Part shown: positions 36,082 through 61,504 of the stretch, piece by piece
Layout of the letters: every line of letters starts with the position of its first letter
How positions within the stretch are numbered: the stretch's first letter is position 1
Source of the DNA: Candidatus Thiodiazotropha sp. LNASS1
Lineage (GTDB): Bacteria > Pseudomonadota > Gammaproteobacteria > Chromatiales > Chromatiaceae
Reading direction: 5' to 3'
NCBI RefSeq assembly: GCF_964212655.1
Contig: NZ_OZ156465.1
Coordinates: 1,736,001-1,800,000 of the forward strand
Length of the DNA stretch: 64,000 bases
Translations under genes and position numbers: made by a program
Notes under the pieces: model-generated
What the model was told of the DNA's origin: nothing
Seen by the model: only the letters and a program-made list of their open reading frames with translations
Database searches by the model: none

Positions 36082-36444
36082 TTCAACTAACCTCTCATTC
36101 GGGCCAAACAGTATCCGTCAGGCAGATCATGCCCGGTGATAAAATCAGCGGCCGATTATGACACAGAAGGGGAAAATTAGCAGGCTTAAGTGATGTATTG
36201 GAATAATTCCATCTTATCAACTGCGCACTGGTGCAGCAAAGCTGCTGCCTGGTAATGCAAGTCACCTGGTTAGCAAACAAAATCAGCGCTTTAGGGTGGG
36301 ACCCTGACTCACCTGTGAGGGCTGGATAGCATGGCGAGTATTCGGGATTGGCTTGTCCTCACGTTTCTGAGTGGAACCCAAGCGAAATGCAGGACAATGA
36401 ATGGATACTCACACAGGAGCATGGGATTCAGCGCCAAAAAACAG
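36082..36444. other. Intergenic region between yajC and the DUF3570 gene
   Basis: About 360 bases. It marks the left edge of the segment inserted between yajC and tgt. It must hold a new promoter for yajC-secDF. I see no tRNA, no integrase attachment repeat and no clear terminator; CTCACCTGTGAG near 36309 is a small palindrome. Confidence 0.5.
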
Positions 36445-37617
36445 TCAATACCAGACCGAGAGATAGGCTTTGATCACATTGGCTGTAAATGAGTAGAGAG
36501 GCTCCTCACCGGCGACACCGCCGCGGGTTATATTGCGAAAATCGTCATACTCGAATCGAATCAGGTCGAGTGAGAAGTTGAGGCTGCCATTGTCTATAAA
36601 CTGCCACCTCTCAGGATGAAAATCATAACTCACAGTGAATCCGAGGGTGTGGCTTTGAAATGTACTCAACTCCTTGTCCCGTGCCAGAAAATTCTGCTCG
36701 TTCACACGTGAGAAGAGATCGCTGTAGAAATCGGCTGCGTTCTGAGTGTAGTAGCGATAACGGACATCGACCACCCAGTCTTTCTCCAGGGGGTGGGTAT
36801 AGGCGAATTCCACGTTGTTGGCACTGATACCCCAGGTATCGTTGAAGTAGCGATATTCACCGCTCAAGGCGGCACGGTAGGGAAGATAATATTTCAGGCG
36901 CAAGGCCAGGGCGTTACTGGTGCGTGTACTTGGATACCTCTCGGGTTGAAAGCCGTATCCATTCTCACTGAGTGGATCGAGAAATCGATAGGAGCGATAG
37001 GGATTGTTCAGGTAGCCCTCGTCGGTAATTGTCTCCCAATCGATGTCGAGAATGCTCTCTTTGGTCAAAATCTGGCTGACACCGATACGGTAATTCTGCC
37101 GCTTCAGTGACTCTCCGAAATCCCTGTCTCCATTGCGGCTGATATCATCATTGCCCACCGCATACCCGAGTGAGACGGTTGTGAGGTCACCGAACATATC
37201 GTGACTGATGGAAAAGCTGCCGGTCTCGGCTTGGTAGTCGCTCTCATCACTGCTGGTTAGCGCCAGGCTCATCAAGGTCTTATTGTGCAGATAATCCAGC
37301 GCCAGGCTGGTTTCCGTACGCTCCTCGGTATAGGGCGACGCCATGCTGACCACATCCACCGAGGCGCTTGAGATGGAATCGATATAGTAGTTGGCATTCA
37401 GTGACACATTGCCGGAAAAGGACTTGCGCACCAGGATCGATGGCCCATCCACTTCGACACCACCGCCATCGTAACGGTGATACATGATATCCGCTCTGTC
37501 TTCAGGAAGAACCGTAGCCTGCAATCCCGCACTGCACGTTAACAGCAGCACTATTTGCAGACCGAAAAGGCCCCGCTCTGATATCAGCCATGAGAAAACC
37601 GAAGTGCAACCTCGCAT
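36445..37617 (-). CDS. DUF3570 outer-membrane beta-barrel protein
   Basis: About 390 residues from the ATG at 37617, 10 bases after the DUF4266 stop; an upstream in-frame extension would overlap that gene and is rejected. A signal peptide (FGLQIVLLLTCSAGLQA) precedes LPEDRADIMYHRYDGGGVEV, the hallmark start of DUF3570. Many alternating strands and a terminal aromatic (LSVWY) indicate an outer-membrane barrel. DUF3570 is usually encoded with DUF4266, a thioredoxin and ApbE, and all four occur on this island. The function is unknown; a link to extracytoplasmic flavin or redox chemistry is inferred. Confidence 0.85.
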   Translation of the reverse strand: MRGCTSVFSWLISERGLFGLQIVLLLTCSAGLQATVLPEDRADIMYHRYDGGGVEVDGPSILVRKSFSGNVSLNANYYIDSISSASVDVVSMASPYTEERTETSLALDYLHNKTLMSLALTSSDESDYQAETGSFSISHDMFGDLTTVSLGYAVGNDDISRNGDRDFGESLKRQNYRIGVSQILTKESILDIDWETITDEGYLNNPYRSYRFLDPLSENGYGFQPERYPSTRTSNALALRLKYYLPYRAALSGEYRYFNDTWGISANNVEFAYTHPLEKDWVVDVRYRYYTQNAADFYSDLFSRVNEQNFLARDKELSTFQSHTLGFTVSYDFHPERWQFIDNGSLNFSLDLIRFEYDDFRNITRGGVAGEEPLYSFTANVIKAYLSVWY

Positions 37618-37627
37618 GGTCGTGAGA

Positions 37628-37855
37628 CTAGTTACAGCCACATCCCCCTCCGCCTCCGCCCTCGGCGCCACGTGCCGCCTCGCGGGTCTGATAGACATGG
37701 TGTCGGTAGGCGCTCGCGACAGGGTCGCGCTCAAAACTCATGATCGGATCGGCCAGATGGGCACGCTCATAGGGTTGTACCCATGGCTCGATACTGCACC
37801 CTGCAGTAGCGAGAACGGATAGAGAGAGCAAAAACCTGCAGGTTCTGTATAACAT
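37628..37855 (-). CDS. DUF4266 small lipoprotein
   Basis: About 75 residues from an ATG at 37855. The lipobox is LATAGC, so the mature protein starts at a lipidated cysteine. The family core PWVQPYERAHLADPIM follows, and the tail is GGGGGCGCN with two cysteines. DUF4266 proteins accompany DUF3570 barrels, here 10 bases upstream of one. A redox or metal role for the cysteine tail is only a guess. Confidence 0.88.
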   Translation of the reverse strand: MLYRTCRFLLSLSVLATAGCSIEPWVQPYERAHLADPIMSFERDPVASAYRHHVYQTREAARGAEGGGGGGCGCN

Positions 37856-37876
37856 CGTTTTCACTTCAATCAATGG

Positions 37877-38392
37877 TTACTCACGCAACAGCTGACGAAT
37901 CTGTTGCTGGTACTCTTCCTCATATCCGGGTTTATATCCCTTATGGAGATAACGTATCCGTCCATCCCTATCGACCATGAAGGTGCTTGGCATCGCTTTA
38001 ACCTGATACTGTTTACTCACTTTGCTACGGTCATCATAGAGAATGGGAAAACTCACCGGGACGTCACTCAGCATCTTATCGGCTGCGGCCCTGTCTTCAT
38101 CCACATTCACGCCCAACAGTGAAAAACCCAGGGATTGGTAGCGATCGAACAACTGCTGCAACAGTGGCATCTCCTGGCGACAGGGACCACACCAGGACGC
38201 CCAGAAATTCACCATCACTACCTGCCCTCGCAGTTCACTCAGCTTTATATTCACACCCTCTCGACTCTTGAGTGTGAAATCCGGTGCCATGGATGGTTGC
38301 TTGGCTGCAACGGCATATCCGCAAGCCAACAGCAATAGACCGGCTACGATAAACTGATGCAATCGGAATTGAATTAGGCGTTTACTCAACAT
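37877..38392 (-). CDS. TlpA-like periplasmic thioredoxin
   Basis: A 171-residue exported thioredoxin with an N-terminal hydrophobic segment (about 13-29) and the active site WASWCGPC. The TlpA/ResA-type core continues with LGVNVDED and AMPSTFMVDRDGRI. It probably reduces disulfides in apocytochromes or in the neighbouring cysteine-bearing proteins. GAGGGA lies seven bases before its ATG. The DUF4266 start is 21 bases after the stop codon. Confidence 0.92.
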   Translation of the reverse strand: MLSKRLIQFRLHQFIVAGLLLLACGYAVAAKQPSMAPDFTLKSREGVNIKLSELRGQVVMVNFWASWCGPCRQEMPLLQQLFDRYQSLGFSLLGVNVDEDRAAADKMLSDVPVSFPILYDDRSKVSKQYQVKAMPSTFMVDRDGRIRYLHKGYKPGYEEEYQQQIRQLLRE

Positions 38393-38402
38393 CGCTTTTC
38401 CC

Positions 38403-39065
38403 TCAAAAGAAGTATGTCAGGCCACCGTGCAGCTCGAAGTTGTGAATTGTCTTCGTCTCCCCCAGCAGGTCTGACTCGAACATGTGATCCCTGACATCGA
38501 GATGCAGGGTCAGCCAGTCATTGATCAAGAGTCGATACCCCGCACCGACATTGACCGTGAACTCATCGTCTCCGGCAAAGCGTGTGCTGCCGATTCCGGC
38601 GATCAGATAGAACTGGCTGTTATAGGCATATTTACCACCCAGAAACACCTCTCCGGGAAGCAGATTGTATCCGGCGGAGAGGTTGTAATAGGTGAAGTCA
38701 CGGTCATCGTCGGCGAGCAGCTGAACATCGCCGCCCAGCTGTTCGAAACTCGTCTCCTTGGCCTCGGTCGTGCCGATCGCCGCCTCAACGAAAATCGATT
38801 CCGTAAGGTGATAGGCGAAACGGGCGCCGAAGACGCCGCTGGTCCCGAAATCCTCTATGTTCATCAAACCGGCATAGATCCCAATCTCGAAATCCTCTGT
38901 ATCGATCTCGGGTTCCACAATCTCCCTGCGTGCAATCTCAGGCTCAATAAGCAGATCCTCACGCAGCCCCTCTCCGATAGGCTCAGCGGCTATACACGGC
39001 GGCATTATCAGGGCCGTCAGAAGTGACGCGATGCTCAGAAAAAGAAACCGAGTCCGATTTTCCAC
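38403..39065 (-). CDS. Outer-membrane beta-barrel protein
   Basis: A 220-residue secreted protein with a signal peptide (about 1-27). An acidic N-terminal stretch (LIEPEIARREIVEPEIDTED) leads into a small barrel typical of OmpW/OMP_b-brl proteins, ending in GLTYFF. The start is a GTG with GAGGAA eight bases upstream, inside the preceding gene, which it overlaps by 31 bases. Its role is unknown; the operon suggests it works with the SH3-barrel protein. Confidence 0.78.
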   Translation of the reverse strand: MENRTRFLFLSIASLLTALIMPPCIAAEPIGEGLREDLLIEPEIARREIVEPEIDTEDFEIGIYAGLMNIEDFGTSGVFGARFAYHLTESIFVEAAIGTTEAKETSFEQLGGDVQLLADDDRDFTYYNLSAGYNLLPGEVFLGGKYAYNSQFYLIAGIGSTRFAGDDEFTVNVGAGYRLLINDWLTLHLDVRDHMFESDLLGETKTIHNFELHGGLTYFF

Positions 39066-39796
39066 TGGTCAAATTCCTCATTGTCTTCACGACTGGTGAA
39101 TGCGGTGTAGTGGCGAAACTCTCCGCGCAGAAAAAAACGCCGCGTCAGATAGACACGCAGGCCGGCGCCGACATGGGCCGTAGTGTCGGTACGATCCTCA
39201 GCCTGAACCAATGTCGACTTGGGCTCGGTGCGAATCACACCCCCTCCCAATGTGAAAAACGGACTATAGGTCCATTCGGGAAAGGGCTGAGACAGCAGGT
39301 TGACATCAAACAGGTATTCGCTTGAGAAATCACCCAAGGCTTGAGACAGACTGAGCTCAGCGGAGAGATTTTCATTGAACGAGTAACCACCATATAAACC
39401 AAGCAGTGTGGCGCCCTCCATGTCGCCGCCATAAAAACCGAATTCCCATTCCCGGTTCCTGAAATCATCCTGTGTATAGCCGACCAGCTTAAGCCGCTCA
39501 CCATCCGCGGTTTGAGTCTGGCGCATCTGCTCCAAGCTGACCCAACCAGAACGACCGCGACGCGTGTAAACCTGAAACCAATCCGTACGACGCTTTCGAA
39601 CCTCGACCCACTCCATCCTTTCCACGACGTATACGATGGGATAGGAACGCCCCGGCCCGGTGTGCATTTCAATATAGGGGGCTGTCACCTGAACCCGTTG
39701 ATACTCCTCTTCTCCCGCACTGGTTGCAGGTATCAGCCAGATCAACAGCCAGCTCGTCCACAGATACCGCTTTAACCTAAGAAGTCTCAAACTCAC
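39035..39796 (-). CDS. SH3-domain outer-membrane beta-barrel protein
   Basis: A 253-residue exported protein. After the signal peptide, residues about 30-90 form a bacterial SH3 domain (APYIEMHTGPGRSYPIVY, then GRSGWVSLEQM), followed by an eight-stranded-type barrel ending GLGFFF. SH3b domains often bind cell-wall peptides, so this could join the outer membrane to peptidoglycan. The start is a GTG overlapping the preceding stop (GTGA). Confidence 0.8.
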   Translation of the reverse strand: MSLRLLRLKRYLWTSWLLIWLIPATSAGEEEYQRVQVTAPYIEMHTGPGRSYPIVYVVERMEWVEVRKRRTDWFQVYTRRGRSGWVSLEQMRQTQTADGERLKLVGYTQDDFRNREWEFGFYGGDMEGATLLGLYGGYSFNENLSAELSLSQALGDFSSEYLFDVNLLSQPFPEWTYSPFFTLGGGVIRTEPKSTLVQAEDRTDTTAHVGAGLRVYLTRRFFLRGEFRHYTAFTSREDNEEFDQWKIGLGFFF

Positions 39797-42432
39797 TCAT
39801 CCAGTGGTGCCATGAAAGGGTCATTGTAATATTGTGCGCCTATATCGAGCCATTCAGCTATCAGTCTTTTCTCCGCGTCACTCAGATAACCCGCATGCAC
39901 GCCACCGGGATCAAACAGCCCAAGGAAGCGGCCATTATTCGCCGAGCCCGCCTCCATCGAGGCTCCTCCCGGCACCGGCACCGGTGCATCAGGCAGTGGA
40001 ACAGGATTGCCCGATCCATCCAGGACCAGCTCACCGTTGTCATCGGTTTCATACAGCGGTTGGCCGTTTTCATCCGTTTGCGGCACCAGAATATCAACCA
40101 GAATACCGTCCACGACCTGCTGCAGATTATCCGGTACAAGCAACTCCCGATAGGCTGCGAAGTGGTCCGGCTCATCTTCGGATGGACCATCACTCAGATC
40201 CAGCTGGGCATCCGGTAACACGGTCACCCCATTGTCATCCGTGTCATGGCAGAGCGTACAGGTATGATCGTCGACCTGGGTATTGGAGGCATCGAATACC
40301 GGTCGTGGCAGCGACCATAACGGATGGATATGCTGTTCGTAATGTATGATGGAACGACAGAACACATTCCAGCTGCCGCTACAGGCAGCGTCACTCAGGG
40401 GCGACTCCGTCTCCAGGTCCGCATACCGATAGCTGAATTCCGTATCAGGCTCTCTCATGGCCGGATCCGTCCAGACATCGGTGAACAGCAGGTCCAAGGT
40501 TGGATCACAAGCGCCGGCTCTGCATTGCAGACGGTTGCGTGTCTGCGCCATGGTCTCTCCGAAATCGCTCCACAGCTCCGGATTGGCATTCGGGAATGGC
40601 AGACCGCTACCTGTACTGCCGTTATAGATACTGGGTGGCGCGGCACTCAGTCTGCCATGGGGAAGCGGGTTGTCAGCAGCATGGCAGCCACCGCAACTCA
40701 CGACCTCTCCCGGCCTGAACTGGAGCCAGAAGCCATGAGGTTGATCGATGCGTCGTCCATTCGCATCGAGTATGGCGAAACTGACGGGAACATTCGCCGG
40801 CACCTTCACCTGCACGGAACCATCGGGTTCGATCGGCGCATAGCCGATCACCTCACGCATACCGAACTGCGCGGTCGCGCCAAACGCGCTGTTTGAAAAC
40901 TCGAGCACATCATCATCGGGGATGGTCACCTGCTTGATGAGGCGCAGAAACCTTGCCGGACGTTGATCCGACCGGGTCTGGGCGGGATCGGCCAGGGTTG
41001 GTATATCGGGATCGGCCTCATCCACGCCGTCCAGATCGTAGACACTGCGTATATGCAGCAGGCCGGCCTTGTCCGACACCAGGGCCGGGTCAAGATCGAT
41101 ACCCGCTGTTTTGTCATGTCGGATCGTCGGAACGGCACGCGCCACAGCGATCACCGCATCGGTGTAGATGACACCCTCTTGCGGTTTGACGATCGGTTGT
41201 TGGGTCTGCGTATCTCCATCGTAGATATAAAGGCTGTAGAGCGGCGGCGCCGCTTCGGTATCAGGATTGGCAAGACGCTCATCGGTGCAGGGAACGATAA
41301 TATCATCCTCCAACGCACGGCACTGGCTCCAGCTGATCACCATCCGATCCGTTCCATCAAACAGCGGGTAGGCGCTGCGCAACTGTCCACCGCTCGACAG
41401 ACTGCCATCGGTGGTGACCTGAAGCGTGGTCGCCTGGGTCTGCGCCGGGCCTGTCAGGCCCGTGTTTTCCCATGTGGGCTGATCATTATCCACATAGTTG
41501 GCGCTGTCTATATAGACCAGGTCGCCACCCTCATCGGTACCGTCGAAGGGTAACAGCAACGCCAGAATACGACCATCCGGCATCTCGATCGGGCGCAAGA
41601 ACTGCACCGTACCACCCCCGGTTCCCGAATCATGACTGTTCAATCCATACAACAGCTCCAACTCGGTGCCATCCGGATTCATGCGATAGAGATGGATGGC
41701 ATCGTTGCCGTCCGCATTGTTCCAACGACTGAACACAATCTGACCATCGGCAAGGACGCTGGGAGAGAAGTCATGGCTGCGATTGAACGAGATCTGGGTG
41801 ATATCGGTACCATCGCTGTTCATGACATGGAGAACCATGGCCGGCTCATCAACCGATCTCTCCATGGCGAGATACTGGGGTTTGCCCTCGTCCAGCAGCC
41901 GCGCCTTGGCAAGCCGTTGCCTGGTGGAAGAGAAAACGATACGCCCATCGGGCAGATATTGAGGGAAGCGGTCGTGACCATCTTCGGCAGTGATATCCGA
42001 GACAATGACACGTCTCAAAGATTGACTTGGAATGTCGTACTCCCAGATATTCCATGTCGGCTGATCCTCTGGCTCGGCATCCTCGATAAGGGGCAGCCTG
42101 AGGGAGAACAGCAGCTTGCTACCATCGAACGAGGCACTGACATCACGCACATCACCTTCACCCTCGGTTACCGATCCTGTCAGGTTGACCTCCTCGGCCC
42201 CCCCTGCGGCGTAATCCTTCAGATAGAGGTCTCCACCCGCCTCGCTGACCTGACTGACACGGATATCCGTATTGGTTGTCTCAGTAATCGGCCGCTTCAC
42301 ATAGGCAACAGGGTAATCCACGACAACCGGATCCTGCTCCTGGCTGCTGCCACTGCCGCATCCCTGTAAACCGAGGATGAACAAGGCAGCGAATAGGCCT
42401 GGCAACGTCGTCATGGCGGCAACCCGTTTCAT
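39793..42432 (-). CDS. HzsA-like lipoprotein with TolB-type repeats and two c-type haem motifs
   Basis: An 879-residue probable outer-membrane lipoprotein with lipobox LQGC. Residues about 40-400 contain beta-propeller repeats of PD40/TolB type (GRIVFSSTR, MNSDGTDITQI, GQIVFSRWN, MNPDGTEL). The C-terminal half resembles HzsA, the hydrazine synthase alpha family, with haem sites C580-G-G-C-H584 and C725-T-L-C-H729. True hydrazine synthase is unlikely, since its partner subunits and anammox genes are absent. It may be a surface electron-transfer protein. It is followed by the SH3-barrel gene with a four-base overlap. Confidence 0.85.
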   Translation of the reverse strand: MKRVAAMTTLPGLFAALFILGLQGCGSGSSQEQDPVVVDYPVAYVKRPITETTNTDIRVSQVSEAGGDLYLKDYAAGGAEEVNLTGSVTEGEGDVRDVSASFDGSKLLFSLRLPLIEDAEPEDQPTWNIWEYDIPSQSLRRVIVSDITAEDGHDRFPQYLPDGRIVFSSTRQRLAKARLLDEGKPQYLAMERSVDEPAMVLHVMNSDGTDITQISFNRSHDFSPSVLADGQIVFSRWNNADGNDAIHLYRMNPDGTELELLYGLNSHDSGTGGGTVQFLRPIEMPDGRILALLLPFDGTDEGGDLVYIDSANYVDNDQPTWENTGLTGPAQTQATTLQVTTDGSLSSGGQLRSAYPLFDGTDRMVISWSQCRALEDDIIVPCTDERLANPDTEAAPPLYSLYIYDGDTQTQQPIVKPQEGVIYTDAVIAVARAVPTIRHDKTAGIDLDPALVSDKAGLLHIRSVYDLDGVDEADPDIPTLADPAQTRSDQRPARFLRLIKQVTIPDDDVLEFSNSAFGATAQFGMREVIGYAPIEPDGSVQVKVPANVPVSFAILDANGRRIDQPHGFWLQFRPGEVVSCGGCHAADNPLPHGRLSAAPPSIYNGSTGSGLPFPNANPELWSDFGETMAQTRNRLQCRAGACDPTLDLLFTDVWTDPAMREPDTEFSYRYADLETESPLSDAACSGSWNVFCRSIIHYEQHIHPLWSLPRPVFDASNTQVDDHTCTLCHDTDDNGVTVLPDAQLDLSDGPSEDEPDHFAAYRELLVPDNLQQVVDGILVDILVPQTDENGQPLYETDDNGELVLDGSGNPVPLPDAPVPVPGGASMEAGSANNGRFLGLFDPGGVHAGYLSDAEKRLIAEWLDIGAQYYNDPFMAPLDE

Positions 42433-42753
42433 CTGTAGCTAGCTTCCTCCGGGAAAACTGATCGAACCGTGTCTGATCAACCCATCTGTGGTTAACCATG
42501 GATATGTCATCGAACACCATTCAAAACAAGCATTGACTCGTGCTATCGACTAATAAAATCATGGACTTGAGAGTCTACCTCATCGAAGTCGCCAATCAGT
42601 GCGCGAGTTCACACACTGTTAAAACAGAAGTCACGTATTCACCACTTTGGATTGACAAAAACAGGGAAAGATATAGAAGGAAAGAGACGGTAAACAAAGA
42701 CTCGAAGGATGCTTCGAGATTAGTCTAAAGATGGATTTAGGGGCACCTTCATC
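42433..42753. other. Divergent promoter region
   Basis: About 320 bases between the HzsA-like gene and the plus-strand haem-protein gene. A 62-codon open frame at 42540-42728 has no family features and is not called. The region must drive both sides of the haem-protein cluster. Confidence 0.45.
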
Positions 42754-43947
42754 ATGTCATTTCAGGGCCAATACAGAGATAGTATTTCGATTCCTAGAAA
42801 GCCACGGCCGTTTTTTATTCTGATTCTGCTATCTCTCTTCACCGTCACCGTATCGGCAGGACCACGTGAACAGGCCAAACGCATGCACGACCGGATAGCC
42901 GGGGTACCACCAGGCACTGAAATCCTGGCACAAATGGTCACTGAAATCGAAACCAACGGCGATCCATTGGCAGCTGCCATGATCGCCACAGAGCATCCCG
43001 ATTTCTACAATGTCACACTGAAGAACTGGGCCACTCCCTGGACCAACGAGGAGATGACACCCTTTGCTCCGCTGAATGACTACAGCGCCACTGTGATCGG
43101 AATGGTAAGGGATGATGTTCCTTTCAACCAGTTACTCTCTGCAGACATCCTCTATATCGGCAGCAACGCACCGGCCTACTCCAACAGCAATAACGACCAC
43201 TATGAGGCGATGGAGACCTTGGGCCTGAACCTCAAGAATGAGCTGCAGCAAACCACCCAGTCGAGTGTGACCGGGCTTCCGCCGGAGGGAACCGCAGGTG
43301 TCATCACCACCCGTGCAGCCGCAAGGGCGTTCTTTATCGATGGTACGAATCGAGCCATGTTCCGTTTCACCATGCTCAATCACCTATGCAAGGATCTTGA
43401 ATTGATCAAGGACCCGACACGGGCCTCCGACCGGATCCGCCAGGACGCCACTCGCAGCCCCGGAGGGGATAGCCGTGTATGGTTCAACAACTGCTTGGGA
43501 TGTCATGCCGGCATGGCCCCCCTGGCACAGGCCTATGCCTATTACAACTACGAATATACCGATGATCCGGAAACCGGCCGCCTCGCCTACACACGTGATA
43601 GCGTGCAACCCAAGTACCTGATCAACAGCAGCGTCTTCAAGGACGGCTATGTCACGACGAATGACGATTGGGATAACTACTGGCGGGAAGGCCCCAATTC
43701 GGTGCTGGGCTGGGACCCGAATCTGCCAGGCTCCGGTGCAGGCGCCAAATCGATGGGCGAGGAACTTGCCAACTCCCATGCCTTTGCAGAATGCCAGGTC
43801 AGCAAGGCCTTCCAGGCAGTCTGCCTGCGCCCCGCTGTGGACAGCGCTGACCGAACCCGCATCGCGGAGATCACCAGCAGTTTCAAAACCGATTACAACA
43901 TGAAACGCGTGTTCGCTGAAGCCGCGGTCTATTGCGCAGGGGATTGA
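42754..43947 (+). CDS. Secreted monohaem-motif protein of unknown family
   Basis: A 397-residue exported protein; hydrophobic segment about 20-34 with a likely cleavage site before GPREQAKR. A single c-type haem site C247-L-G-C-H251 is followed by AGMAPL. The rest (AAAMIATEHPDFYNVTLKNWATP and similar) is not one I recognise with confidence. It lies immediately upstream of the LamG lipoprotein (four bases) and is divergent from the HzsA-like gene, so the three haem proteins form one cluster. Confidence 0.75.
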   Translation: MSFQGQYRDSISIPRKPRPFFILILLSLFTVTVSAGPREQAKRMHDRIAGVPPGTEILAQMVTEIETNGDPLAAAMIATEHPDFYNVTLKNWATPWTNEEMTPFAPLNDYSATVIGMVRDDVPFNQLLSADILYIGSNAPAYSNSNNDHYEAMETLGLNLKNELQQTTQSSVTGLPPEGTAGVITTRAAARAFFIDGTNRAMFRFTMLNHLCKDLELIKDPTRASDRIRQDATRSPGGDSRVWFNNCLGCHAGMAPLAQAYAYYNYEYTDDPETGRLAYTRDSVQPKYLINSSVFKDGYVTTNDDWDNYWREGPNSVLGWDPNLPGSGAGAKSMGEELANSHAFAECQVSKAFQAVCLRPAVDSADRTRIAEITSSFKTDYNMKRVFAEAAVYCAGD

Positions 43948-43951
43948 TTCA

Positions 43952-46402: not shown

Positions 46403-46470
46403 GATAAAGATCTAATGGATCAGGAATACGCCCCGAACAAGCAGCCTGTGTGGCTAACGGTAAAGAAATC

Positions 46471-50811: not shown

Positions 50812-50816
50812 TACGG

Positions 50817-52658: not shown

Positions 52659-55489
52659 GGCTGTCACTCTCGATTTCTCTACTCGGCATCGCACTCTCTG
52701 GGTGTGCAAACCTGCCGATGTCAGGCAAATCGAAATCCGATGAACCCACCCTTGCGGATATTCAAAAGCAACCGATAAAGGTCGAAAAACAGGCACTCAC
52801 CCCCACTGACCGTAACGAAGTTATAGAAAATTATCGTGCCATCCTGGAATTGAATCCCGATCAACGACTCAACAGTGAAGCGACCCGTCGTTTGGCGGAC
52901 CTCGAACTGGAGCGCAGTGAAACCAAGCTGTTGCAATCAACGGACGAGCCTGTCCCCAGCGATGCAGAGTTATCCAAGTCGATCAAATTGTATGAATCCT
53001 TGTTGCGTAAGGATCCAAACTATGCCTCACGGGACCTGGTGCTGTATCAACTGGCCAGGGCATATGAGCTGAAAGGTGACATAAACACCATGATGCTGAC
53101 CCTGCGCGCCCTGGTCACACAACACCCCGACAGCCCCTATTGGCAGGAAGCACAGTTCCGACGTGGCGAACATTTTTTCGTCGTACAGCAGTTCAACCGC
53201 GCCGAATCGGCATACAAAGCCATTCTTCAGCAACGCAAGGAGACACCCTACTACGATCGGGCGCTTTTCAAACATGGCTGGTCACTGTTCAAACAGCGAA
53301 ATATCGAACAGGGACTCGATTCATTCACACAGCTACTTGATCGAAACCTGAAAGAGAAGCGGCAGATTGATGTCGGTAAACTCTCTCCTGCAGATCAGAA
53401 GCTGCTGAAAGAGACCATCAGAGTCATTAGCCTGACCTTCTCTGAACTCGGTGGCGCAAAGCGTATCAGCCGATATTTCGACAATAAGGGTCACCGGAAC
53501 TATGAGTACATGATCTATCAGGGACTGGGTGACCTCTACCTTAAGCAGGAACGTATCCAGGATGCGGCAGACGCCTATCTGGCCTTCGTGGACCTCTCCC
53601 CGGACCATCCCCAGTCACCGCGCCTGTCAGTAAAGGTGGTCGACATCTATACCGAGAATGGCTTCCCGAGACGCGCCATCGAAAGTAAAAAATCATTTGT
53701 CCAACACTACGCCGTTGGGAGTGATGCCTGGAACAAACAGGATGGAAAGAATCAGGCCTGGTTGAATCAGCAATTGAGGAACTATCTGAAGGAGCTTGCT
53801 GAATACCACCATGCATTGGCCCAGGAATACAAAAAAAGCAAGGATAGGAAAATCGCTGCACAGCAGACAAAACAAGGCGCCGAAGCTGCCCGTTGGTATC
53901 GGTTGTACCTGGATACATTCTCCGATGATCCGACTGCGGGTAGCATCAGTTTCCTGCTCGGTGAACTGCTGTTCGAATTAAAAAAGTATCCTGAAGCCGT
54001 CATTGCCTATGAAGACAGCGCATACCGTCTGCCGGCCCATGACAAACAGGCTGAAGCGGGCTATGCCGCCCTCCTCGCCTACGCCGCTCAGAGTAAACAG
54101 CTGCCGGAAGACAAACGGGAGGCTTGGCGCCGGCAGGGTGTCGAGAGCGCCCTGAAATATTGCGACATCTTTCCCAAGGATCCACGCAGAGCCTCGGTAT
54201 TGACAGAGGCGGCCGATCAATTGCTACAACTCAACCAGGTAGGACGCGCCCGGGGCGCCGCGCTACAGGTCGCCAATCAAACCCCGCCTGCCGCGAAAAA
54301 ACTGCGGCGCACTGCCTGGACAATAGCCGCACATGCCGCGTTCGAGCAAAAGGATTACCCGGCTGCTGAAACCGCCTATCAACAGGCACTGAAGCTGCTA
54401 CCCGGCAAGGCCAAGGAGAAAAAACTTCTTGAGGAGAGGCTGGCTGCAAGCATCTACCAACAGGGTGCGGCATTACGCTCCCAGGGCAATCACAAAGGGG
54501 CGGCTCAAGCCTTTATGCGTATCGGTAAGCAGGCACCGAAAGCAGAGATATTGTCCACTGCAGAATATGATGCCGCCGCCAGCCTGATCGCTGCAGGAGA
54601 CTGGGCCGGTTCGGTTAAAATCCTCGAATCCTATAAGGCCAAATACCCGAAAAGCGAGTTGATACCGGAGGTCAACAGTAAACTGGCTGTCGCCTACATG
54701 GAGACCAAGCAACCACTTAAGGCGGCAGCGGAACTGGCGACTCTGTCCACCCAGGCATCATCCCCCGAATTACGCCGCGAGGCCGGCTGGCGCTCTGCGG
54801 AATTGTATAACAAAGCGGGCAAAGAGAAACAGGCGATTGCCGCTTACAAAAGCTATATCAAGGCCTTTCCGGCTCCGGTTGAACAAGCGATGGAGGGAGG
54901 ACAAAAACTGGTTGAGCTTTACCATAAGAGAGGTGAAAAGGGTAAACGTGACTGGTGGCTGAAAGAATTGATCAAGATCGATGCAGGTGCTGGAAAGCAA
55001 CGCAGTGACCGCACGCGCTACCTGGCGGCTCAAGCGTCTTTGCAACTTGCTGAGGCAAACATGAAGCGTTTCCAGGGTATTAAGCTGAAGGCGCCACTGG
55101 AGAAAAATCTGAAACGTAAAAAGCAACAAATGCAGACTGCCATCAGCGCCTATAAAAAGGCAATCAAGTATGGTGTGGCTGAGGTCACGACCAGTGCCAC
55201 TTACAAAATCGGTGAAATGTACCGACAGTTCGGGACAGCCCTGATGGAGTCCGAAAGACCGAAGGGATTGAACACGGATGAATTGGAGCAATACGAGATC
55301 CTGCTGGAAGAGCAGGCCTTTCCGTTTGAAGAGAAAGCGATCTCGCTCTACGAATCAAATATCGAAAGAGTGTCCAGCGGCATCTATGACGAATGGGTAA
55401 AAAAGAGCTTCAATGCACTGGCAAAACTGTTACCCGGGCGCTATGCAAAACAGGAGAAGCGGGAGGCGTGGATCGATGCAATCAATTAG
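52655..55489 (+). CDS. Large TPR lipoprotein
   Basis: A 944-residue lipoprotein with lipobox LSGC. Nearly the whole length is helical TPR/Sel1-like repeat, for example YQLARAYELKGDINTM and YKAILQQRKETPYYDRALF. Such proteins act as outer-membrane or periplasmic scaffolds; in gliding-type and TonB-type machines they link energised inner-membrane complexes to the surface. It overlaps the upstream gene by four bases and the next start by 14. Confidence 0.82.
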   Translation: MRLSLSISLLGIALSGCANLPMSGKSKSDEPTLADIQKQPIKVEKQALTPTDRNEVIENYRAILELNPDQRLNSEATRRLADLELERSETKLLQSTDEPVPSDAELSKSIKLYESLLRKDPNYASRDLVLYQLARAYELKGDINTMMLTLRALVTQHPDSPYWQEAQFRRGEHFFVVQQFNRAESAYKAILQQRKETPYYDRALFKHGWSLFKQRNIEQGLDSFTQLLDRNLKEKRQIDVGKLSPADQKLLKETIRVISLTFSELGGAKRISRYFDNKGHRNYEYMIYQGLGDLYLKQERIQDAADAYLAFVDLSPDHPQSPRLSVKVVDIYTENGFPRRAIESKKSFVQHYAVGSDAWNKQDGKNQAWLNQQLRNYLKELAEYHHALAQEYKKSKDRKIAAQQTKQGAEAARWYRLYLDTFSDDPTAGSISFLLGELLFELKKYPEAVIAYEDSAYRLPAHDKQAEAGYAALLAYAAQSKQLPEDKREAWRRQGVESALKYCDIFPKDPRRASVLTEAADQLLQLNQVGRARGAALQVANQTPPAAKKLRRTAWTIAAHAAFEQKDYPAAETAYQQALKLLPGKAKEKKLLEERLAASIYQQGAALRSQGNHKGAAQAFMRIGKQAPKAEILSTAEYDAAASLIAAGDWAGSVKILESYKAKYPKSELIPEVNSKLAVAYMETKQPLKAAAELATLSTQASSPELRREAGWRSAELYNKAGKEKQAIAAYKSYIKAFPAPVEQAMEGGQKLVELYHKRGEKGKRDWWLKELIKIDAGAGKQRSDRTRYLAAQASLQLAEANMKRFQGIKLKAPLEKNLKRKKQQMQTAISAYKKAIKYGVAEVTTSATYKIGEMYRQFGTALMESERPKGLNTDELEQYEILLEEQAFPFEEKAISLYESNIERVSSGIYDEWVKKSFNALAKLLPGRYAKQEKREAWIDAIN

Positions 55490-56123
55490 TATCCATCCAC
55501 GCATACGGACAGGCATCAAACTTGTCTCGGGAATCTTCTGCATTATCCTGGTTCTTTCTGGTTGCAGTACCACCACTCCCGCGATTAAAGATGATACCAG
55601 CACTGCTAATAGCGAGACTCGTCCTCGCCAGCCGAGCAGCGCCGATCCACAACTGCAAAAGCGCTTCGATGCGGCTGTCGCACTGATGCGTCAGGATAAA
55701 GTCGACAAGGCGAAACTGAACCTGCAGGCACTGATCGATCAGAACCCGCGTTTGCCCGGCCCCTATATCAATCTGGGTATCATACAGCTGAATGAAGGTG
55801 AACCGGCCAAGGCCGCAGCATCTTTTACCACAGCCCTTGAACTAAAACCGGACAGCCTGCCTGCCCGCAATCAACTGGGTGTAGCACTCAGGATGCAGGG
55901 GAAGTTTCAGGAGGCAGAAAAGACCTATCACACGGCCCTGGAAATCGAACCCGATTACCTGCTCGCTCACCGTAATCTAGGGATTCTTTATGATCTCTAC
56001 CTGAGCAAACCCGAACAGGCGCTGGAGCACTATAAGCGATGCCAGGCATTGGGTGATTCGAACGAAAAAGAGATTGCTGGCTGGATCCTGGATCTCGAAC
56101 GACGCATTAACTCATCAAAATAG
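55476..56123 (+). CDS. Small TPR lipoprotein
   Basis: About 215 residues from an ATG at 55476 with GGAGG about eight bases upstream; a longer in-frame extension is rejected. The lipobox is LSGC. At least three TPR units are clear, including PYINLGIIQLNEGEPAKAAA and ARNQLGVALRMQGKFQEAEK. It is probably the third scaffold protein of the operon. Confidence 0.82.
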   Translation: MQSISIHPRIRTGIKLVSGIFCIILVLSGCSTTTPAIKDDTSTANSETRPRQPSSADPQLQKRFDAAVALMRQDKVDKAKLNLQALIDQNPRLPGPYINLGIIQLNEGEPAKAAASFTTALELKPDSLPARNQLGVALRMQGKFQEAEKTYHTALEIEPDYLLAHRNLGILYDLYLSKPEQALEHYKRCQALGDSNEKEIAGWILDLERRINSSK

Positions 56124-56135
56124 CGGAAAGCGGAT

Positions 56136-56423
56136 ATGATGAATAGGCTACATAAAAGAGTGATGATGATAGCAATGACTGTGTTGTTGCTGTCGTCACA
56201 TAATCTGCATGCGGAACAGCGTCTCGACCTGGAGGGCACAGCCATCTTCGGCAACAAAGAGTCGCCGAATATACTCTATGTTGTGCCCTGGCGTTCGGCC
56301 AAGCGCCTCACCAATATGATGCCCCCAGAAACAGGTCGCAGAGATGAGCTGTTTGCTCCGCTGGACCGTGATGTATTTCGCAGACAGATCGATTGGTACC
56401 AGACATTTAGTGAAAAACCGTAA
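56136..56423 (+). CDS. Small secreted hypothetical protein
   Basis: A 95-residue protein with a signal peptide (about 8-26, ending LHA) and a conserved-looking core (LEGTAIFGNKESPNILYVVP, PLDRDVFRRQIDWY). The family is not recognised. It lies between the TPR and ExbB genes and is probably co-transcribed. Confidence 0.65.
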   Translation: MMNRLHKRVMMIAMTVLLLSSHNLHAEQRLDLEGTAIFGNKESPNILYVVPWRSAKRLTNMMPPETGRRDELFAPLDRDVFRRQIDWYQTFSEKP

Positions 56424-56554
56424 AGAATCTATTGCTTGGTGCCGCATGACTGAAACAACCCGACTTCTTGCATCAGATGTGTGTTTTTTATCCACCACTG
56501 GATGCATGTATTTACAGTAAACCGATATTCAGGTGTTAAACAACGGAGAATCCT

Positions 56555-57208
56555 ATGGAGCTCATCGACCCCATCATCCGATTTTTTCAGGAAGGCGGAC
56601 TCTTTATGTACCCTATCCTGCTGATCTTTGCAGGGGGCGTGGCGATAGCCATCGAACGCTGGGTCTTTCTCACCATACAGACCGGCAGCAACAAGCGCAC
56701 CTGGAGAAGGGTCCTGCCCCATCTCAATGACGGCGACTTCAAGTCCGCCATGGAGACCGCCAACAAATCCAAGACCGCCATCGGCACCATGTTGACCTAC
56801 GGCCTGGCACGGGCACGTACCGCAAGGCGCCGGGACGATGTCGAAGTGGCCATGGAGGAGGGATTGATGGAGGCGATCCCGCGGATGGAAAAACGCACCC
56901 ACTATCTCAGCACACTCGCCAACATCGCTACCCTGCTCGGCCTGTTGGGCACCATCATCGGTCTGATTCAGGCCTTTACCGCCGTCTCCAACGCCGATCC
57001 CGCGGAGAAAGCGGACCTGCTGTCAGCAAGTATCTCGGTAGCCATGAACACCACCGCCTTCGGATTGATGGCGGCCATCCCCCTGTTGCTGGTCTATGCC
57101 CTGCTGCAGAGTAAGACCACCGCCATCGTCGACAGCCTGGAAATGGCCTCAGTGAAATTCCTCAATATCTTCAGCGAACAGGCATTCAGCACACGGAGCA
57201 AGGCATGA
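56555..57208 (+). CDS. MotA/TolQ/ExbB-type proton channel protein
   Basis: A 217-residue inner-membrane protein with three helices (about 16-34, 112-134, 160-183). The family core THYLSTLANIATLLGLLGTI is typical of ExbB/TolQ/AglR. With ExbD partners it converts proton flow into motion or force. GGAG lies eight bases before the start. The stop overlaps the first ExbD gene (ATGA). Confidence 0.93.
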   Translation: MELIDPIIRFFQEGGLFMYPILLIFAGGVAIAIERWVFLTIQTGSNKRTWRRVLPHLNDGDFKSAMETANKSKTAIGTMLTYGLARARTARRRDDVEVAMEEGLMEAIPRMEKRTHYLSTLANIATLLGLLGTIIGLIQAFTAVSNADPAEKADLLSASISVAMNTTAFGLMAAIPLLLVYALLQSKTTAIVDSLEMASVKFLNIFSEQAFSTRSKA

Positions 57209-57723
57209 GAGAACGGCTGAGGCGCCATCGACACGGGGAAGAGCTGAACATTACAGCCTTCCTCAACCTGATGGTGATCCTGATTCCCTTTTTGTTGATC
57301 ACCGCCGCGTTTTCCAGGTTTTCCATTATCGAGCTCTATCTGCCCCCGGCCAGTGAAGGCACCCTGAAGGCGATCAAAGAGCTTCAGCTGGAAGTGATCA
57401 TCCGCCCCGACAGCCTCGAAGTTGCGGATCGGGAAGGCGGCCTGATCAGACGTCTGAAGAACACCCCGGATGGTTACGACGTAAAAGGTTTGAACGAGCT
57501 ACTGGTTCAGATCAAGGTACGCTTTCAGGATAAACGCAACATCTTCATCCTATCGGAACCGAATACCAAATACGAAACCATGGTGCAGGTGATGGATGCC
57601 GTACGCATGACAGAGAACTTGGAAGCCGGAACCGTCGTTCAGTATGAATTGTTTCCCGATATTGCGTTGGGCGATGCCCCGCCGGTAGCCGCGCAGAAGC
57701 AGGACGAAGGTAACGCATCATGA
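57205..57723 (+). CDS. ExbD/TolR-type protein lacking the membrane aspartate
   Basis: A 172-residue protein with one membrane helix (about 17-36) and a periplasmic domain. The position of the proton-carrying aspartate in ExbD (consensus PFIDVM) reads AFLNLM here, with Asn21. It is therefore unlikely to carry protons by the usual route and may be structural. It overlaps both neighbours by four bases. Confidence 0.88.
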   Translation: MRERLRRHRHGEELNITAFLNLMVILIPFLLITAAFSRFSIIELYLPPASEGTLKAIKELQLEVIIRPDSLEVADREGGLIRRLKNTPDGYDVKGLNELLVQIKVRFQDKRNIFILSEPNTKYETMVQVMDAVRMTENLEAGTVVQYELFPDIALGDAPPVAAQKQDEGNAS

Positions 57724-58232
57724 AGATGTCACGCCGGGCAAAACGCATGGATCGTCATCATCGGCGAAACAAAGGCCATGCCGTACTCAACCTGGTCTCC
57801 CTGATGGATATCTTTACCATCCTGGTCTTCTTCCTGCTGGTCAATTCCGGTGAGGTTCAAGTGCTACCCAACGCAAAGGCATTGAGCCTGCCCGAGTCGG
57901 CGGCAAGCTTGAAACCCCGCGAGACCTTGGTGGTGATGGTCAATCACAATGAAATCCTGGTACAGGGCCACCGGGTCATGGATCTTGCACAACCCTTGCC
58001 CACCGGTACCACGCTGCCCGCCTTGAAGAGCGAACTGCAGCGTCATGCGGAGAGATCCAAAACGAGTAGCCTGGAACCCTTCAGAGGCAAGATCACCATC
58101 ATGGGTGAGAAAACGATTCCCTATACCCTGCTGAAGCGTGTCATGGCAACCTGCGCCGAGTCTGAATATCCCAACGTATCCCTGGCGGTATTGAGAAAGA
58201 ATGAAAAGCCCAATGGAGGACAGCCGCTGTGA
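57720..58232 (+). CDS. ExbD/TolR-type protein with the membrane aspartate
   Basis: A 170-residue second ExbD. Its membrane helix (about 23-42) holds SLMDIF with Asp30 at the proton-carrying position. The periplasmic domain follows. Together with the Asn variant it probably forms a heteromeric stator with ExbB. It overlaps the AgmX/TonB gene by four bases. Confidence 0.9.
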   Translation: MKMSRRAKRMDRHHRRNKGHAVLNLVSLMDIFTILVFFLLVNSGEVQVLPNAKALSLPESAASLKPRETLVVMVNHNEILVQGHRVMDLAQPLPTGTTLPALKSELQRHAERSKTSSLEPFRGKITIMGEKTIPYTLLKRVMATCAESEYPNVSLAVLRKNEKPNGGQPL

Positions 58233-59200
58233 GCGCCTCCTATCGACACTCCACCTATCTACCCTGGTACACGGCATCCGCCGACGAGCGGCGATTTCAG
58301 ATCATTGCCCTGGTGGTACTCATCATTGCACTGCTTTCAGGCACCATTGTACCGATGATCGAGCTGCCGGAAAAAGAGCGCTTCAAGAAACAGACCCTGC
58401 CGCCCCGGTTGGCGAGACTGATCCTTGAGCAGAAGAAAGAGCCGCCGAAACCAAAGAAGATCGTCAAGAAGAAGCTGCCGGAACCCGAGAAGAAGAAACC
58501 GGAGAAGAAGAAGCCGGAAGAGAAGAAGAAACCCGAACCGCAAAAGCCGCCGGAAAAGCAGGTGGCGAAGAAAAAGCCGACTAAAGAGGACGCGCGTAAG
58601 AAAGCGGCAAGCGCGGGCCTGCTTGCCTTTGCCGATCAATTGGCGGACCTGCGCGAAGAACAGATCGAATCGAGTGTCAAGGGTGTACAGAAACTATCGA
58701 CCACCGGTAAGAAGACATACCGCAGCCAACGTTCGATCATCTCGTCCGGTGTCGCCAGTGGAAGTGGCGGGATCAATACCGCAGCCCTGAGCAGTGAGAC
58801 GGGAGGCGCCGGACTCTCGGGACGTCGAACGACCGAGGTGCAGAGTAGCGCCATCAGTGAGGAGACAAAAGCGGCGGCCCGTGGAAAGGGCAAAGGCAAG
58901 AATTTCAAAGGGAATCGTACCCGTGAAGAGATACAGGTGGTCTTCGATCAGAACAAAGGGGCTGTCTACGCGCTCTACAATCGCGCCTTGCGGAAAGACC
59001 CCACACTGCGCGGCAAGGTAGTGTTGGAGTTGACGATAACACCTGCCGGAAAGGTAACCAAGTGCGTCATACTTTCATCCGAGTTGAACGATACAAAACT
59101 GGAACGTAAGCTGGTGTCACGTATCAAGCTGTTTAAGTTTCCCGCCAAGGACGTAGATACCGCGGTGGTCTCCTATCCCATCGATTTTCTGCCCTCTTGA
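58229..59200 (+). CDS. TonB-like protein with AgmX/PglI C-terminal domain
   Basis: A 323-residue protein starting at GTG. A cytoplasmic start and one membrane helix (about 23-44) are followed by a lysine/proline/glutamate-rich spacer (about 66-125), as in TonB, which can span the periplasm. The C-terminal domain (about 222-323, EIQVVFDQNKGAVYALYNRA, then KVVLELTITPAGKV) matches the AgmX/PglI domain known from Myxococcus gliding. It is the final gene of the operon and the likely output of the ExbB/ExbD motor. Confidence 0.88.
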   Translation: MSASYRHSTYLPWYTASADERRFQIIALVVLIIALLSGTIVPMIELPEKERFKKQTLPPRLARLILEQKKEPPKPKKIVKKKLPEPEKKKPEKKKPEEKKKPEPQKPPEKQVAKKKPTKEDARKKAASAGLLAFADQLADLREEQIESSVKGVQKLSTTGKKTYRSQRSIISSGVASGSGGINTAALSSETGGAGLSGRRTTEVQSSAISEETKAAARGKGKGKNFKGNRTREEIQVVFDQNKGAVYALYNRALRKDPTLRGKVVLELTITPAGKVTKCVILSSELNDTKLERKLVSRIKLFKFPAKDVDTAVVSYPIDFLPS

Positions 59201-59372
59201 TGCATCGATTATCCACCTGCAACAGCATTTCGCTTTGCAGGCGGTTGATGATTTCTGGTTTACTCAACAACCACTAGTCAAATGGCGAACGGGCTGAATA
59301 AAGCAAGCCGCAAACGAACGCTATTCACCGCAAAAAGCGCAAATATATCCGCTATGGAATTCCGAAAAAAAT

Positions 59373-60365
59373 ATGTGGAATATTCTTAATCACCTCCCGC
59401 TATTGATAGCGGTCTCCTGTTGCGCTCTGTTTCAACCGCTGCACGCAGCCTGGATCAGCGGAGAGGAGGCGATCATGGGTACCAAGGTTAACGTACAACT
59501 CTGGCACCTGGACAAGAGAGAGGGCGAAGCGGCGGTTCAAGCAGTCATTGAGGAGTTTCAACGCCTGGATCACAAACTGAGCCCCTATATCGAACACAGT
59601 GAACTGGCTATCGTCAATCGTGTGGCTGCAAGCAAACCTGTAGTGATTTCGGAGGAGTTCTACCGCCTTCTCGAGGCCTCCCTCGAATATTCTAAGCTGA
59701 CCAAAGGCGCTTTCGATATCACCTTCGCCTCGATTGGGCACCGTTACGACTATCGTAAGGGAATAAAGCCAAACAATTCGACGATCGACCGTACCCTGCC
59801 CCTGATTGACTACCGCAATATTAGACTGGTCGCGGATAACCGCACGGTCTCGTTCGAGAAGCCAGGCGTGCGCATCGACCTCGGCGGCATCGCCAAAGGC
59901 TACGCCGTCGACCAGGGCATCGAACTGCTGCGGCAGAGAGGCATTGAACATGCACTGATCAGCGCCGGCGGAGACAGCCGCCTGCTGGGCGACCACCGTG
60001 GCAGGCCATGGCATATCGGCATCCAGGCGCCAAGGGATAAAGCACGCATGGCCGCCATGCTACCCCTTGTCGATAACGCCATCTCCACCTCAGGTGATTA
60101 CGAACGCTTCTTCGAACGCGACGGCATACGCTACCACCATATCATCAGTCCCAAAACCGGACGTTCCGCCGACACCCTGCAAAGCGTCACCATCATCGGC
60201 CCCAATGCAACACGCACCGACGCCTTATCCACCAGCGTCTTCGTGCTTGGCGCTGAAAAAGGAATGGCGCTGATCAATCGTCTGCAGGATGTCGATGCCG
60301 TGATCATCGACAAAGATGGGAAGATGAATACTTCGGATGGCTTTGCAGATGCGGATTCACAATAA
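59373..60365 (+). CDS. apbE: FAD:protein FMN transferase
   Basis: A 330-residue exported ApbE-family protein. After the signal peptide (about 5-26) it shows the family motifs DLGGIAKGYAVD, ISAGGDSRLLG and HHIISPKTGRSAD. It attaches FMN to Ser/Thr of secreted proteins using FAD. It probably belongs functionally with DUF3570, DUF4266 and TlpA at the other end of the island. No obvious flavinylation motif (DxxS/TGAT) was found in the island proteins I read. Confidence 0.92.
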   Translation: MWNILNHLPLLIAVSCCALFQPLHAAWISGEEAIMGTKVNVQLWHLDKREGEAAVQAVIEEFQRLDHKLSPYIEHSELAIVNRVAASKPVVISEEFYRLLEASLEYSKLTKGAFDITFASIGHRYDYRKGIKPNNSTIDRTLPLIDYRNIRLVADNRTVSFEKPGVRIDLGGIAKGYAVDQGIELLRQRGIEHALISAGGDSRLLGDHRGRPWHIGIQAPRDKARMAAMLPLVDNAISTSGDYERFFERDGIRYHHIISPKTGRSADTLQSVTIIGPNATRTDALSTSVFVLGAEKGMALINRLQDVDAVIIDKDGKMNTSDGFADADSQ

Positions 60366-60808
60366 ACCTTGCACCGGATTTATTGAATGATTTTCGCGAA
60401 TCCTAAACATCATAGATAAAAGCACAGTTACGGATTACATATCACAACGCATTAACAAAAAGATGCATACCCTACACCTGACCCGAGTGATCGCCCTTAC
60501 AGCAGGGACATAGAAAGAAATGTCAAAACTATGGATTCAGAAGAGCTTGTTGAGATAATGAGCGGAGAAGGAGAACAAATTCTGACTGAGGAGGAAGAAG
60601 CATGGTCGCAGGAACCAATCCTTCCGGTGTGTTTTTCTCACTATATCACTCAATTGAAATTGAGCCCGTAGGGTATGGCACTGTAATTACCTTATTTCAA
60701 GTTCCGCCAGATCCTAAATATTAGATTGAGCTTTGTAGCAGTGAAGATATAGAGGTACATCAAAATGCAATATAAAAACTCAGCACATAACGATGGGCTA
60801 CACCGATC
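60366..60808. other. Intergenic region after apbE
   Basis: About 440 bases. It contains an acidic 46-codon open frame at 60531-60671 (EELVEIMSGEGEQILTEEEE, then AWSQEPILPVCFSHYITQL), too short and isolated to call with confidence. No hairpin terminator was noted. Confidence 0.4.
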
Positions 60809-61417
60809 ATGAAAAACATTACATTTTCTCTTTCTTTGATAGTCACTACATCGTTAATGTTTACCGCCTGTGGCGGTGATGTCGAACCACCTCATCGAAA
60901 CCCTTCACAACAACAGTTCACCCAACCACCGCAAGCCATTTCGCTGCCACTGAAAAATCCGAGCTTCGAACAATCTGATCAATACCTAGAAGGCTGGGGC
61001 TTTTCCCAGCATGCGGGAGAACAGGCGTACGCAGTATCCATCGACACAGCTGACAGTACCGATGGCAAAAACAGCTACCGTATCGAACGCAAGCTGGTTC
61101 AGGCCTGGGGGATGATCTATCAATGGTTACCGCTTGATAATGCCACGGGAAAATCCATCATACTGACCGCCATGATCAAAAGCGAAAACCTGGGTCCGGA
61201 TGGATTCGACATCAATCTGGTGTTTCGAAAAGCCAACCGAAAAGTCATTGGAAAGATCGGTACAGAAGCAATTACAGGCACCAATAACTGGCAACGGATT
61301 GTAGTTACAGGCGTTATCCCTGCCGATACGGCTCATTTGCAGATTACAGCAGTGTTAAATGACGCTGGTACTGCTTGGCTGGATGATGTTCGGGTTAGCA
61401 TCACCGATGAGAATTGA
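60809..61417 (+). CDS. Lipoprotein with a carbohydrate-binding-like domain
   Basis: A 202-residue lipoprotein with lipobox FTAC. Residues about 45-200 form a beta-sandwich resembling CBM4/9 (LKNPSFEQSDQYLEGWGFSQ, then AWLDDVRV), so glycan binding is possible. It is the last gene of the island before tgt and is not clearly tied to an operon. Confidence 0.75.
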   Translation: MKNITFSLSLIVTTSLMFTACGGDVEPPHRNPSQQQFTQPPQAISLPLKNPSFEQSDQYLEGWGFSQHAGEQAYAVSIDTADSTDGKNSYRIERKLVQAWGMIYQWLPLDNATGKSIILTAMIKSENLGPDGFDINLVFRKANRKVIGKIGTEAITGTNNWQRIVVTGVIPADTAHLQITAVLNDAGTAWLDDVRVSITDEN

Positions 61418-61504
61418 TGCCCAGCTGGGGTATCAACTCCAATTAGCTCTCGATAGTTATTAGTCTACCAAGCAATGTGTAGATGATGCATATACTAGGG
61501 CCTG

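Follow-up and report, generated by a model that had tools for sequence, protein, structure and literature searches.

Two described systems resemble parts of the DNA studied here. The Agl-Glt core complex is encoded by the Group B genes aglRQS, gltC, gltD, gltE, and gltG (Luciano 2011, PMC3169522; Wartel 2013, PMC3858216). Since 2011, it has counted as a conserved machine whose function in Gammaproteobacteria is unknown (PMC3169522, PMC3858216); in many of these bacteria it stands alone (Wartel 2013, PMC3858216). The second system comprises flavinylation clusters of ApbE, DUF3570, DUF4266, and thioredoxin genes, with [ST]GA[ST] sites in DUF3570 (Meheust 2021, PMC8238504). We analyzed a 64,000-nucleotide stretch (the window) of the lucinid-clam symbiont Candidatus (Ca.) Thiodiazotropha sp. 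LNASS1, positions 1,736,001 to 1,800,000 of contig NZ_OZ156465.1, from a genome that consists of a single contig of 4.75 Mb. The interval between yajC and tgt in this window (36082-61504) has 22 likely genes and holds relatives of both systems, namely a core, or motor, module (module 1, 50284-59200) and a redox module (module 2, 36445-48042).

With a probability of roughly 0.55, we read this block as a two-module machine that was inherited, that entered the tgt-yajC junction as one piece in the ancestor of Ca. Thiodiazotropha, and whose modules work together. Each half has close published relatives; as far as the open-licence literature goes, what is new is their combination. We found no open-licence publication that joins the core to the redox module. 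Meheust 2021, the only such paper found with DUF3570 or DUF4266, mentions neither gliding nor ExbB in its main text, and the available part of a 2025 paper on periplasmic force transducers (PMC12204202) has no GltG. The earlier note on this DNA, a model's comment made from the letters and their open reading frames, had described an envelope gene island; it recognized the secreted and lipidated content and missed the gene identities, i.e., an orphan motor complex and a redox module.

Module 1 lies entirely on the + strand and, like the Agl-Glt core, has one TolQ, two TolR, a TonB-like protein with an AgmX/PglI domain, and three tetratricopeptide repeat (TPR) proteins in one cluster. In the window and in regions read from relatives, the core genes stand in one region outside the Deltaproteobacteria. 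The first core gene encodes p175 (50284-50811), an exported protein that has no family match and is conserved in relatives. It is followed by TPR618 (50802-52658), which matches TPR families and is a possible GltC counterpart (17.6 of 450 bits against the GltC model), by the lipobox-bearing lipoprotein TPR944 (52655-55489; TPR_6 77.4 bits), the putative GltD counterpart by elimination, and by the lipoprotein TPR236 (55413-56123; TPR_1 69.5 bits), a possible counterpart of GltE (46.8 of 225 bits). The GltD model had no match listed among the TPR proteins of the interval. A 95-aa exported protein without a Pfam family (56136-56423) precedes the motor genes and is present in 18 of the 21 region sets read. 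Luciano 2011 mentions an additional core gene, which might correspond to this one or to p175. The motor genes proper encode an AglR-type TolQ/ExbB protein (56555-57208; PF01618 98 bits), TolR/ExbD subunits 1 (57205-57723; PF02472 50.5 bits) and 2 (57720-58232; PF02472 55.9 bits), and a GltG-type TonB-like transducer (58229-59200), which reaches 74.9 bits (cutoff 40) with NF033768, the AgmX/PglI C-terminal domain.

Module 1 deviates from the Agl-Glt core in its attachment to a redox module and in two of its proteins. In the GltG-type protein, similarity to GltG is confined to the C-terminal half of the latter, model positions 334-645 of 650, with 60.9 bits against an equivalog cutoff of 650. 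The TolR subunits differ at the membrane aspartate (Asp) site: across 42 loci, a set that, like the region sets, includes repeats of the same genome, subunit 1 carries asparagine (36) or serine (6), whereas subunit 2 retains Asp in all 42. In Myxococcus, by contrast, both TolR-type subunits of the gliding machinery, AglQ and AglS, carry a conserved Asp (review PMC9389320). As far as sequence can tell, the unequal subunits suggest an asymmetric motor, since only one subunit could carry protons if the TolR axle is a heterodimer.

Module 2 consists of nine genes, the first six of which are on the - strand. DUF3570, an outer-membrane type protein (36445-37734; PF12094 143.6 bits, cutoff 25), has a listed TTG start that is probably too far upstream, because the frame overlaps DUF4266 (37628-37855; PF14086 84.2 bits, cutoff 27), a small lipoprotein whose C-terminal CGCN is found in 69/69 relatives. 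Next come an exported TlpA/ResA-type thioredoxin with a CGPC motif (37877-38392; PF00578 106.9 bits) and two outer-membrane proteins: OMP1 (38403-39065), a barrel with 169.5 bits for TIGR04565 (cutoff 60), and OMP2 (39035-39796), which combines an SH3-like domain with a barrel (PF13505 48.3 bits, cutoff 28.7) and has sub-cutoff matches to SH3_3 (26.9 bits, cutoff 27) and TIGR04565 (41.7 bits, cutoff 60). All four gene types of the ApbE/DUF3570 clusters are present in the block, with ApbE, an FAD:protein FMN transferase, on the far side of module 1 (59373-60365, + strand; PF02424 283.3 bits). In contrast to those clusters, the four gene types are joined here to barrels, hemes, and a motor, and the flavinylation sites are degenerate: the DUF3570 protein of the window reads SSAS and SMAS instead of [ST]GA[ST], and across 84 loci one perfect site occurs in 33 and two in none. 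DsbD was not found among the scanned proteins of the block.

The sixth gene encodes a di-heme lipoprotein with a beta-propeller (39793-42432; PF18582 61.8 bits, cutoff 26.6; PDB 5c2v, E 5e-15) that resembles the alpha subunit of hydrazine synthase (HZS) in its propeller, middle domain, and two heme sites; two CxxCH motifs are present in the window and in 69/69 relatives. Hydrazine synthesis was considered and rejected. The protein scores 49.8 of 800 bits on the HZS-alpha equivalog and is a relative of the alpha subunit only, no other HZS subunit family was found among the block's scanned proteins, and the host is no anammox bacterium. Relatives of HZS-alpha that lack key residues have been described from Planctomycetota and Desulfobacterota (PMC12758564).

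The remaining three genes of module 2 are on the + strand. The mono-heme exported protein cyt397 (42754-43947) has one CxxCH in the window and in 75/75 relatives. At E<=1, PSD2 was matched by all 15 members examined (best 1.3e-5) and PSCyt3 by 9 of them; the window member reaches 12.6 bits (cutoff 25.8), and a profile search of PDB gave nothing specific. The adjacent LamG-domain lipoprotein (43952-46402; PF13385 78.5 bits) has two CxxCH motifs, as do 74 of 76 relatives, and its PDB profile search returned weak sialidase lectin-domain matches only. Tat530 (46450-48042) is a Tat-exported 530-aa protein of an unnamed family with an invariant twin Arg at 32-33. The window protein shares 67-82% identity with 16 relatives, and the nearest named row, from Ca. 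T. endolucinida, is 98% identical. Profile scans gave no confident family for Tat530, its profile search of PDB nothing specific, and a plasmid collection no match. Aligned with DUF1501 by hhalign, Tat530 scores 31.6 (P 0.0055, probability 6.7%), in an alignment that includes the shared Tat signal; 20 column-shuffled controls reach up to 23.3 and eight other families up to 20.5. Judged by these sequence comparisons, Tat530 appears slightly closer to DUF1501 than the controls, which is not enough for naming it. The arrangement recalls the planctomycete-specific cytochrome (PSCyt/PSD) gene pairs (PMC5615132), as a PSD2/PSCyt3-like mono-heme protein stands near Tat and LamG proteins here too; it differs in that the window member lies under the Pfam cutoffs and the DUF1501 link of Tat530 is unproven.

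The two modules are linked well beyond this genome, a pairing found in many marine bacteria. Scanning GTDB genome contigs with the Tat530 alignment yielded at least 548 relatives, and we retained the 80 best loci. The redox nonet is complete in 65 of these, always with one order and one set of strands (65/65). Of 210 genomes sampled from the order, 33 have Tat530, 34 have an AglR copy (>50% identity), and 32 have both. A class-wide sample of 370 genomes gave 52 with Tat530, 88 with AglR, and 48 with both (Fisher 5e-31, without kinship correction); by a hand count of the tables, the 48 belong to 26 families. Where both genes lie on one contig in the class sample, they are within 25 kb of each other in 22 of 24 cases, in several layouts. 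Among the 80 kept loci, 14 showed AglR in the fetched 10-kb flank of Tat530. From the other 66 we picked 39 genomes, leaving out 27 loci that were mainly on short contigs or kin of the window, and AglR was present in every one of the 39 (52-66% identity): 11-20 kb from Tat530 in all 29 same-contig pairs, and on a different contig in 10. This set and the class sample share at least four genomes with identical coordinates and are not additive. In Paraglaciecola, Alteromonas, Shewanella, and Endozoicomonas (one genome read from each), the core is found at the DUF3570 end, and two genomes (G368, G581) have yet other layouts. That the modules stay close despite such rearrangement speaks for a function in common, and we regard the coupling of the two modules as well supported.

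These data suggest the following mechanism. AglR and the two different TolR subunits of module 1, a standalone Agl-Glt core, would form a proton-driven motor, and the GltG-type protein would carry its force across the periplasm. The Nfs and Glt machines of Myxococcus likewise combine a proton-driven motor with an envelope-spanning transducer. The TPR lipoproteins may pass the force to the outer membrane, where their partners are perhaps the two barrels. Module 2 would, together with ApbE, supply a periplasmic and outer-membrane redox set; the motor would serve to assemble an outer-membrane complex, to open it, or to move it at the surface, and the heme, thiol, and perhaps flavin proteins of this complex would oxidize or reduce a substrate outside the cell. 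As a first guess, this substrate is most likely a surface glycan, because the block encodes a LamG domain, the related machines of Myxococcus move surface polysaccharide (PMC3858216), and in Verrucomicrobia there is a link between PSCyt genes and carbohydrate-binding domains (PMC5615132). We infer the physical contact of the modules, the direction of electron flow, and the substrate.

A broader and more speculative proposal, which we consider rather unlikely as a whole, is that in a large share of its gammaproteobacterial hosts the core serves as the motor of a mechano-redox machine. The transducer would gate or move an outer-membrane heme-thiol-flavin complex, surface redox chemistry would be powered by mechanical work done at the inner membrane, and the motor would be asymmetric, with only one TolR subunit able to carry protons. 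The linkage of core and redox genes offers a concrete and testable hypothesis on the job of the core in many hosts, and ties the unnamed families Tat530, cyt397, p175, and the 95-aa protein into one system. Named isolates of Alteromonas, Paraglaciecola, Shewanella, Microbulbifer, and Endozoicomonas are among the hosts of the cluster.

The main rival to a glycan-directed machine is that module 2 is chiefly an outer-membrane electron conduit to or from metals, minerals, or some other electron acceptor or donor outside the cell, and that the motor only energizes assembly or metal uptake. The three exported heme proteins, with five conserved heme sites among them, would suit such a conduit, as would the thioredoxin, the CXC lipoprotein, ApbE, and the DUF3570 barrel, and VIT1 iron transporters occur in 25 DUF3570 clusters (Meheust 2021, PMC8238504). 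However, the block contains no large multiheme cytochrome, its LamG domain and PSD2-like protein point rather to glycan, and scans of the block returned no metal transporter family. We consider a conduit possible, if unlikely.

Several observations weigh against two modules that work together. The degenerate DUF3570 sites make flavinylation uncertain here despite the presence of ApbE. Among the AglR-positive genomes of the class sample, 40 of 88 lack Tat530, and the eight such regions read all proved to contain the core without redox genes, bar one weak thioredoxin match. Four Tat530-positive genomes of that sample had no AglR in the same search, one of them (G249) being Tat530-positive by a fragment, and in two others the modules are 349 kb (G288) and 52 kb (G437) apart, as measured from Tat530 to AglR. 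In G053 and G054, the AglR, TolR, and GltG genes lie on another contig. Finally, five genomes read (G281, G288, G334, G437, G511) contain a bare trio of cyt397, LamG, and Tat530 genes, which may represent the redox module in its smallest form. At five loci with this trio (L191-L194, L197), Tat530 identity is 45-53%, and no barrels, thioredoxin, or motor genes are nearby.

The core alone and the bare trio show that the modules are separable: the redox module is nearly always accompanied by the core, whereas the converse is untrue. Both would also be expected if the block housed two independent envelope systems that are linked through the same marine lifestyle and do no joint work. Such independence is difficult to reconcile with the strong reverse dependence, in which 48 of 52 and 39 of 39 Tat530-bearing genomes have AglR, and with the proximity kept through several rearranged layouts, and we consider it improbable.

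A machine for gliding or another kind of motility in the symbiont, to which the homology of motor and transducer with the Myxococcus machine might point, is very improbable. Of the Group A proteins GltA, B, F, H, I, J, and K, our NCBIfam scans recognized none except for a match of 37.4 of 450 bits to GltJ, a GltG paralogue, on the GltG-type protein itself, with the coverage of all Group A proteins by NCBIfam unchecked; moreover, Luciano 2011 (PMC3169522) argued that, by itself, the core does not power motility.

The genes around the interval of about 25 kb are present in the order that had been claimed for them, namely queA, tgt, yajC, secD, secF, suhB, trmJ, cysE, and the isc genes iscR, iscS, and iscU, followed by hscB and hscA. 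The accompanying claim of kept orientation does not hold for suhB (31534-32331), which is on the + strand, opposite to its neighbors. An open reading frame on the other strand at this position (31510-32403, -) has no family match and was dismissed as an antisense shadow of suhB; its tblastn matches in relatives arise only through conservation of suhB itself. That nearly all interval genes are secreted, lipidated, or membrane-bound was borne out: a simple N-terminal hydrophobicity rule is passed by 17 of 21 interval genes and by 3 of 13 flank genes, and the remaining four (the SH3-barrel protein, the Tat protein, Lgt, and the 95-aa protein) look exported or membrane-bound by eye. The 22nd gene, DUF4266, stood outside this test and has a lipobox by eye.

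Across Ca. Thiodiazotropha, tgt and yajC are 23.8-29.7 kb apart in all 12 genomes that have both on one contig; in the other 10 of the 22 genomes, they are on different contigs or, in G006, tgt has no match. In other genera, the gap is below 1.5 kb in 59 of the 64 same-contig genomes counted (22 of 24 genera), and the five exceptions have gaps of at least 446 kb. G027, with 14% contamination, two yajC matches, and a gap of about 204 kb, is outside this count, which would be 59 of 65 with it. The counts rest on 150 of 192 genomes with a tgt match and 148 of 199 with a yajC match; of the 111 genomes with both placements, 35 with the genes on different contigs were left out. The absence from close relatives that the earlier note had looked to as support is therefore found outside the genus and not within it, and its suggestion of an old insertion or a lineage trait agrees with the genus-wide occupation of this site.

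The same cassette, with differences, fills the tgt-yajC interval of nine other congeners read across. Compared with the window, the stretch from Tat530 to Lgt is longer by about 4-6 kb in three of them (G001, G003, G009), and that from ApbE to tgt by about 5 kb in G004. In sister genera, tgt and yajC are neighbors, and the genes of the block are found at other sites, for the most part still linked rather than scattered over the genome. In g36 (G095, G097, G098) and g24 (G060), the genes from DUF3570 through ApbE stand elsewhere as a cassette in the same order and on the same strands, without Lgt and DUF3187. The distance between tgt and yajC is 0.2-0.4 kb in six g36 genomes as well as in G053 and G063. 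In G063 (g27), the contig ends within the cassette, and AglR is found on a different contig; the redox half of G054 (g20) is located beyond suhB, at the opposite side of the sec genes. In a maximum-likelihood tree of 82 Tat530 rows, the branching agrees for the most part with taxonomy, and the genus adjoins g36 (98/92). Two labels in this tree look doubtful: L087, labelled Polarisedimenticolaceae (Acidobacteriota), has a Tat530 identical to the G053 row of the window's family, and L144, labelled Klebsiella pneumoniae, forms a long lone branch.

A distinct composition, proposed in advance as a sign of insertion, was not found. The GC content of the interval is 53.6%, compared to 52.5 +/- 2.3% in 13 genome stretches, its codon distance is 1.42, a value reached by 45% of 300 random gene sets (1.44 +/- 0.27), and its dinucleotide value is 17, compared to 8-32. 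The edges of the interval share no 12-base repeat. As had been claimed for the edges, no mobility marker was detected, neither a tRNA in the window nor an integrase or transposase family among the 20 interval open reading frames scanned. Ordinary composition, the lack of an edge repeat, and genus-wide presence together argue that native genes were relocated here long ago. Most simply, the genes were inherited within the family and moved once, into the tgt-yajC junction, before Ca. Thiodiazotropha diversified, with the direction of this move inferred. A recently acquired foreign island, for which the restriction of the block at this site to one genus might speak, is rejected with very little doubt on composition, on edges that share no 12-base repeat, on the lack of a tRNA in the window, and on a distribution that includes 12/12 congeners and a Tat530 tree mostly following taxonomy.

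Between the two modules lie Lgt, a prolipoprotein diacylglyceryl transferase (48162-48992, + strand; PF01790 227.7 bits), and the DUF3187 exported protein (48940-50034, - strand; PF11383 171.6 bits). Both are additions within the genus: DUF3187 is in the block of all nine congeners read and Lgt in that of seven, being missing there in G013 and G015. Next to tgt, a gene for a 202-aa protein with a lipoprotein signal (60809-61417, + strand) was found in none of these nine congeners. The left flank of the window encodes a VIT/VWA protein (7665-9827), a TIR-domain protein (21301-22089), and a PEP-CTERM-motif protein (22382-23596).

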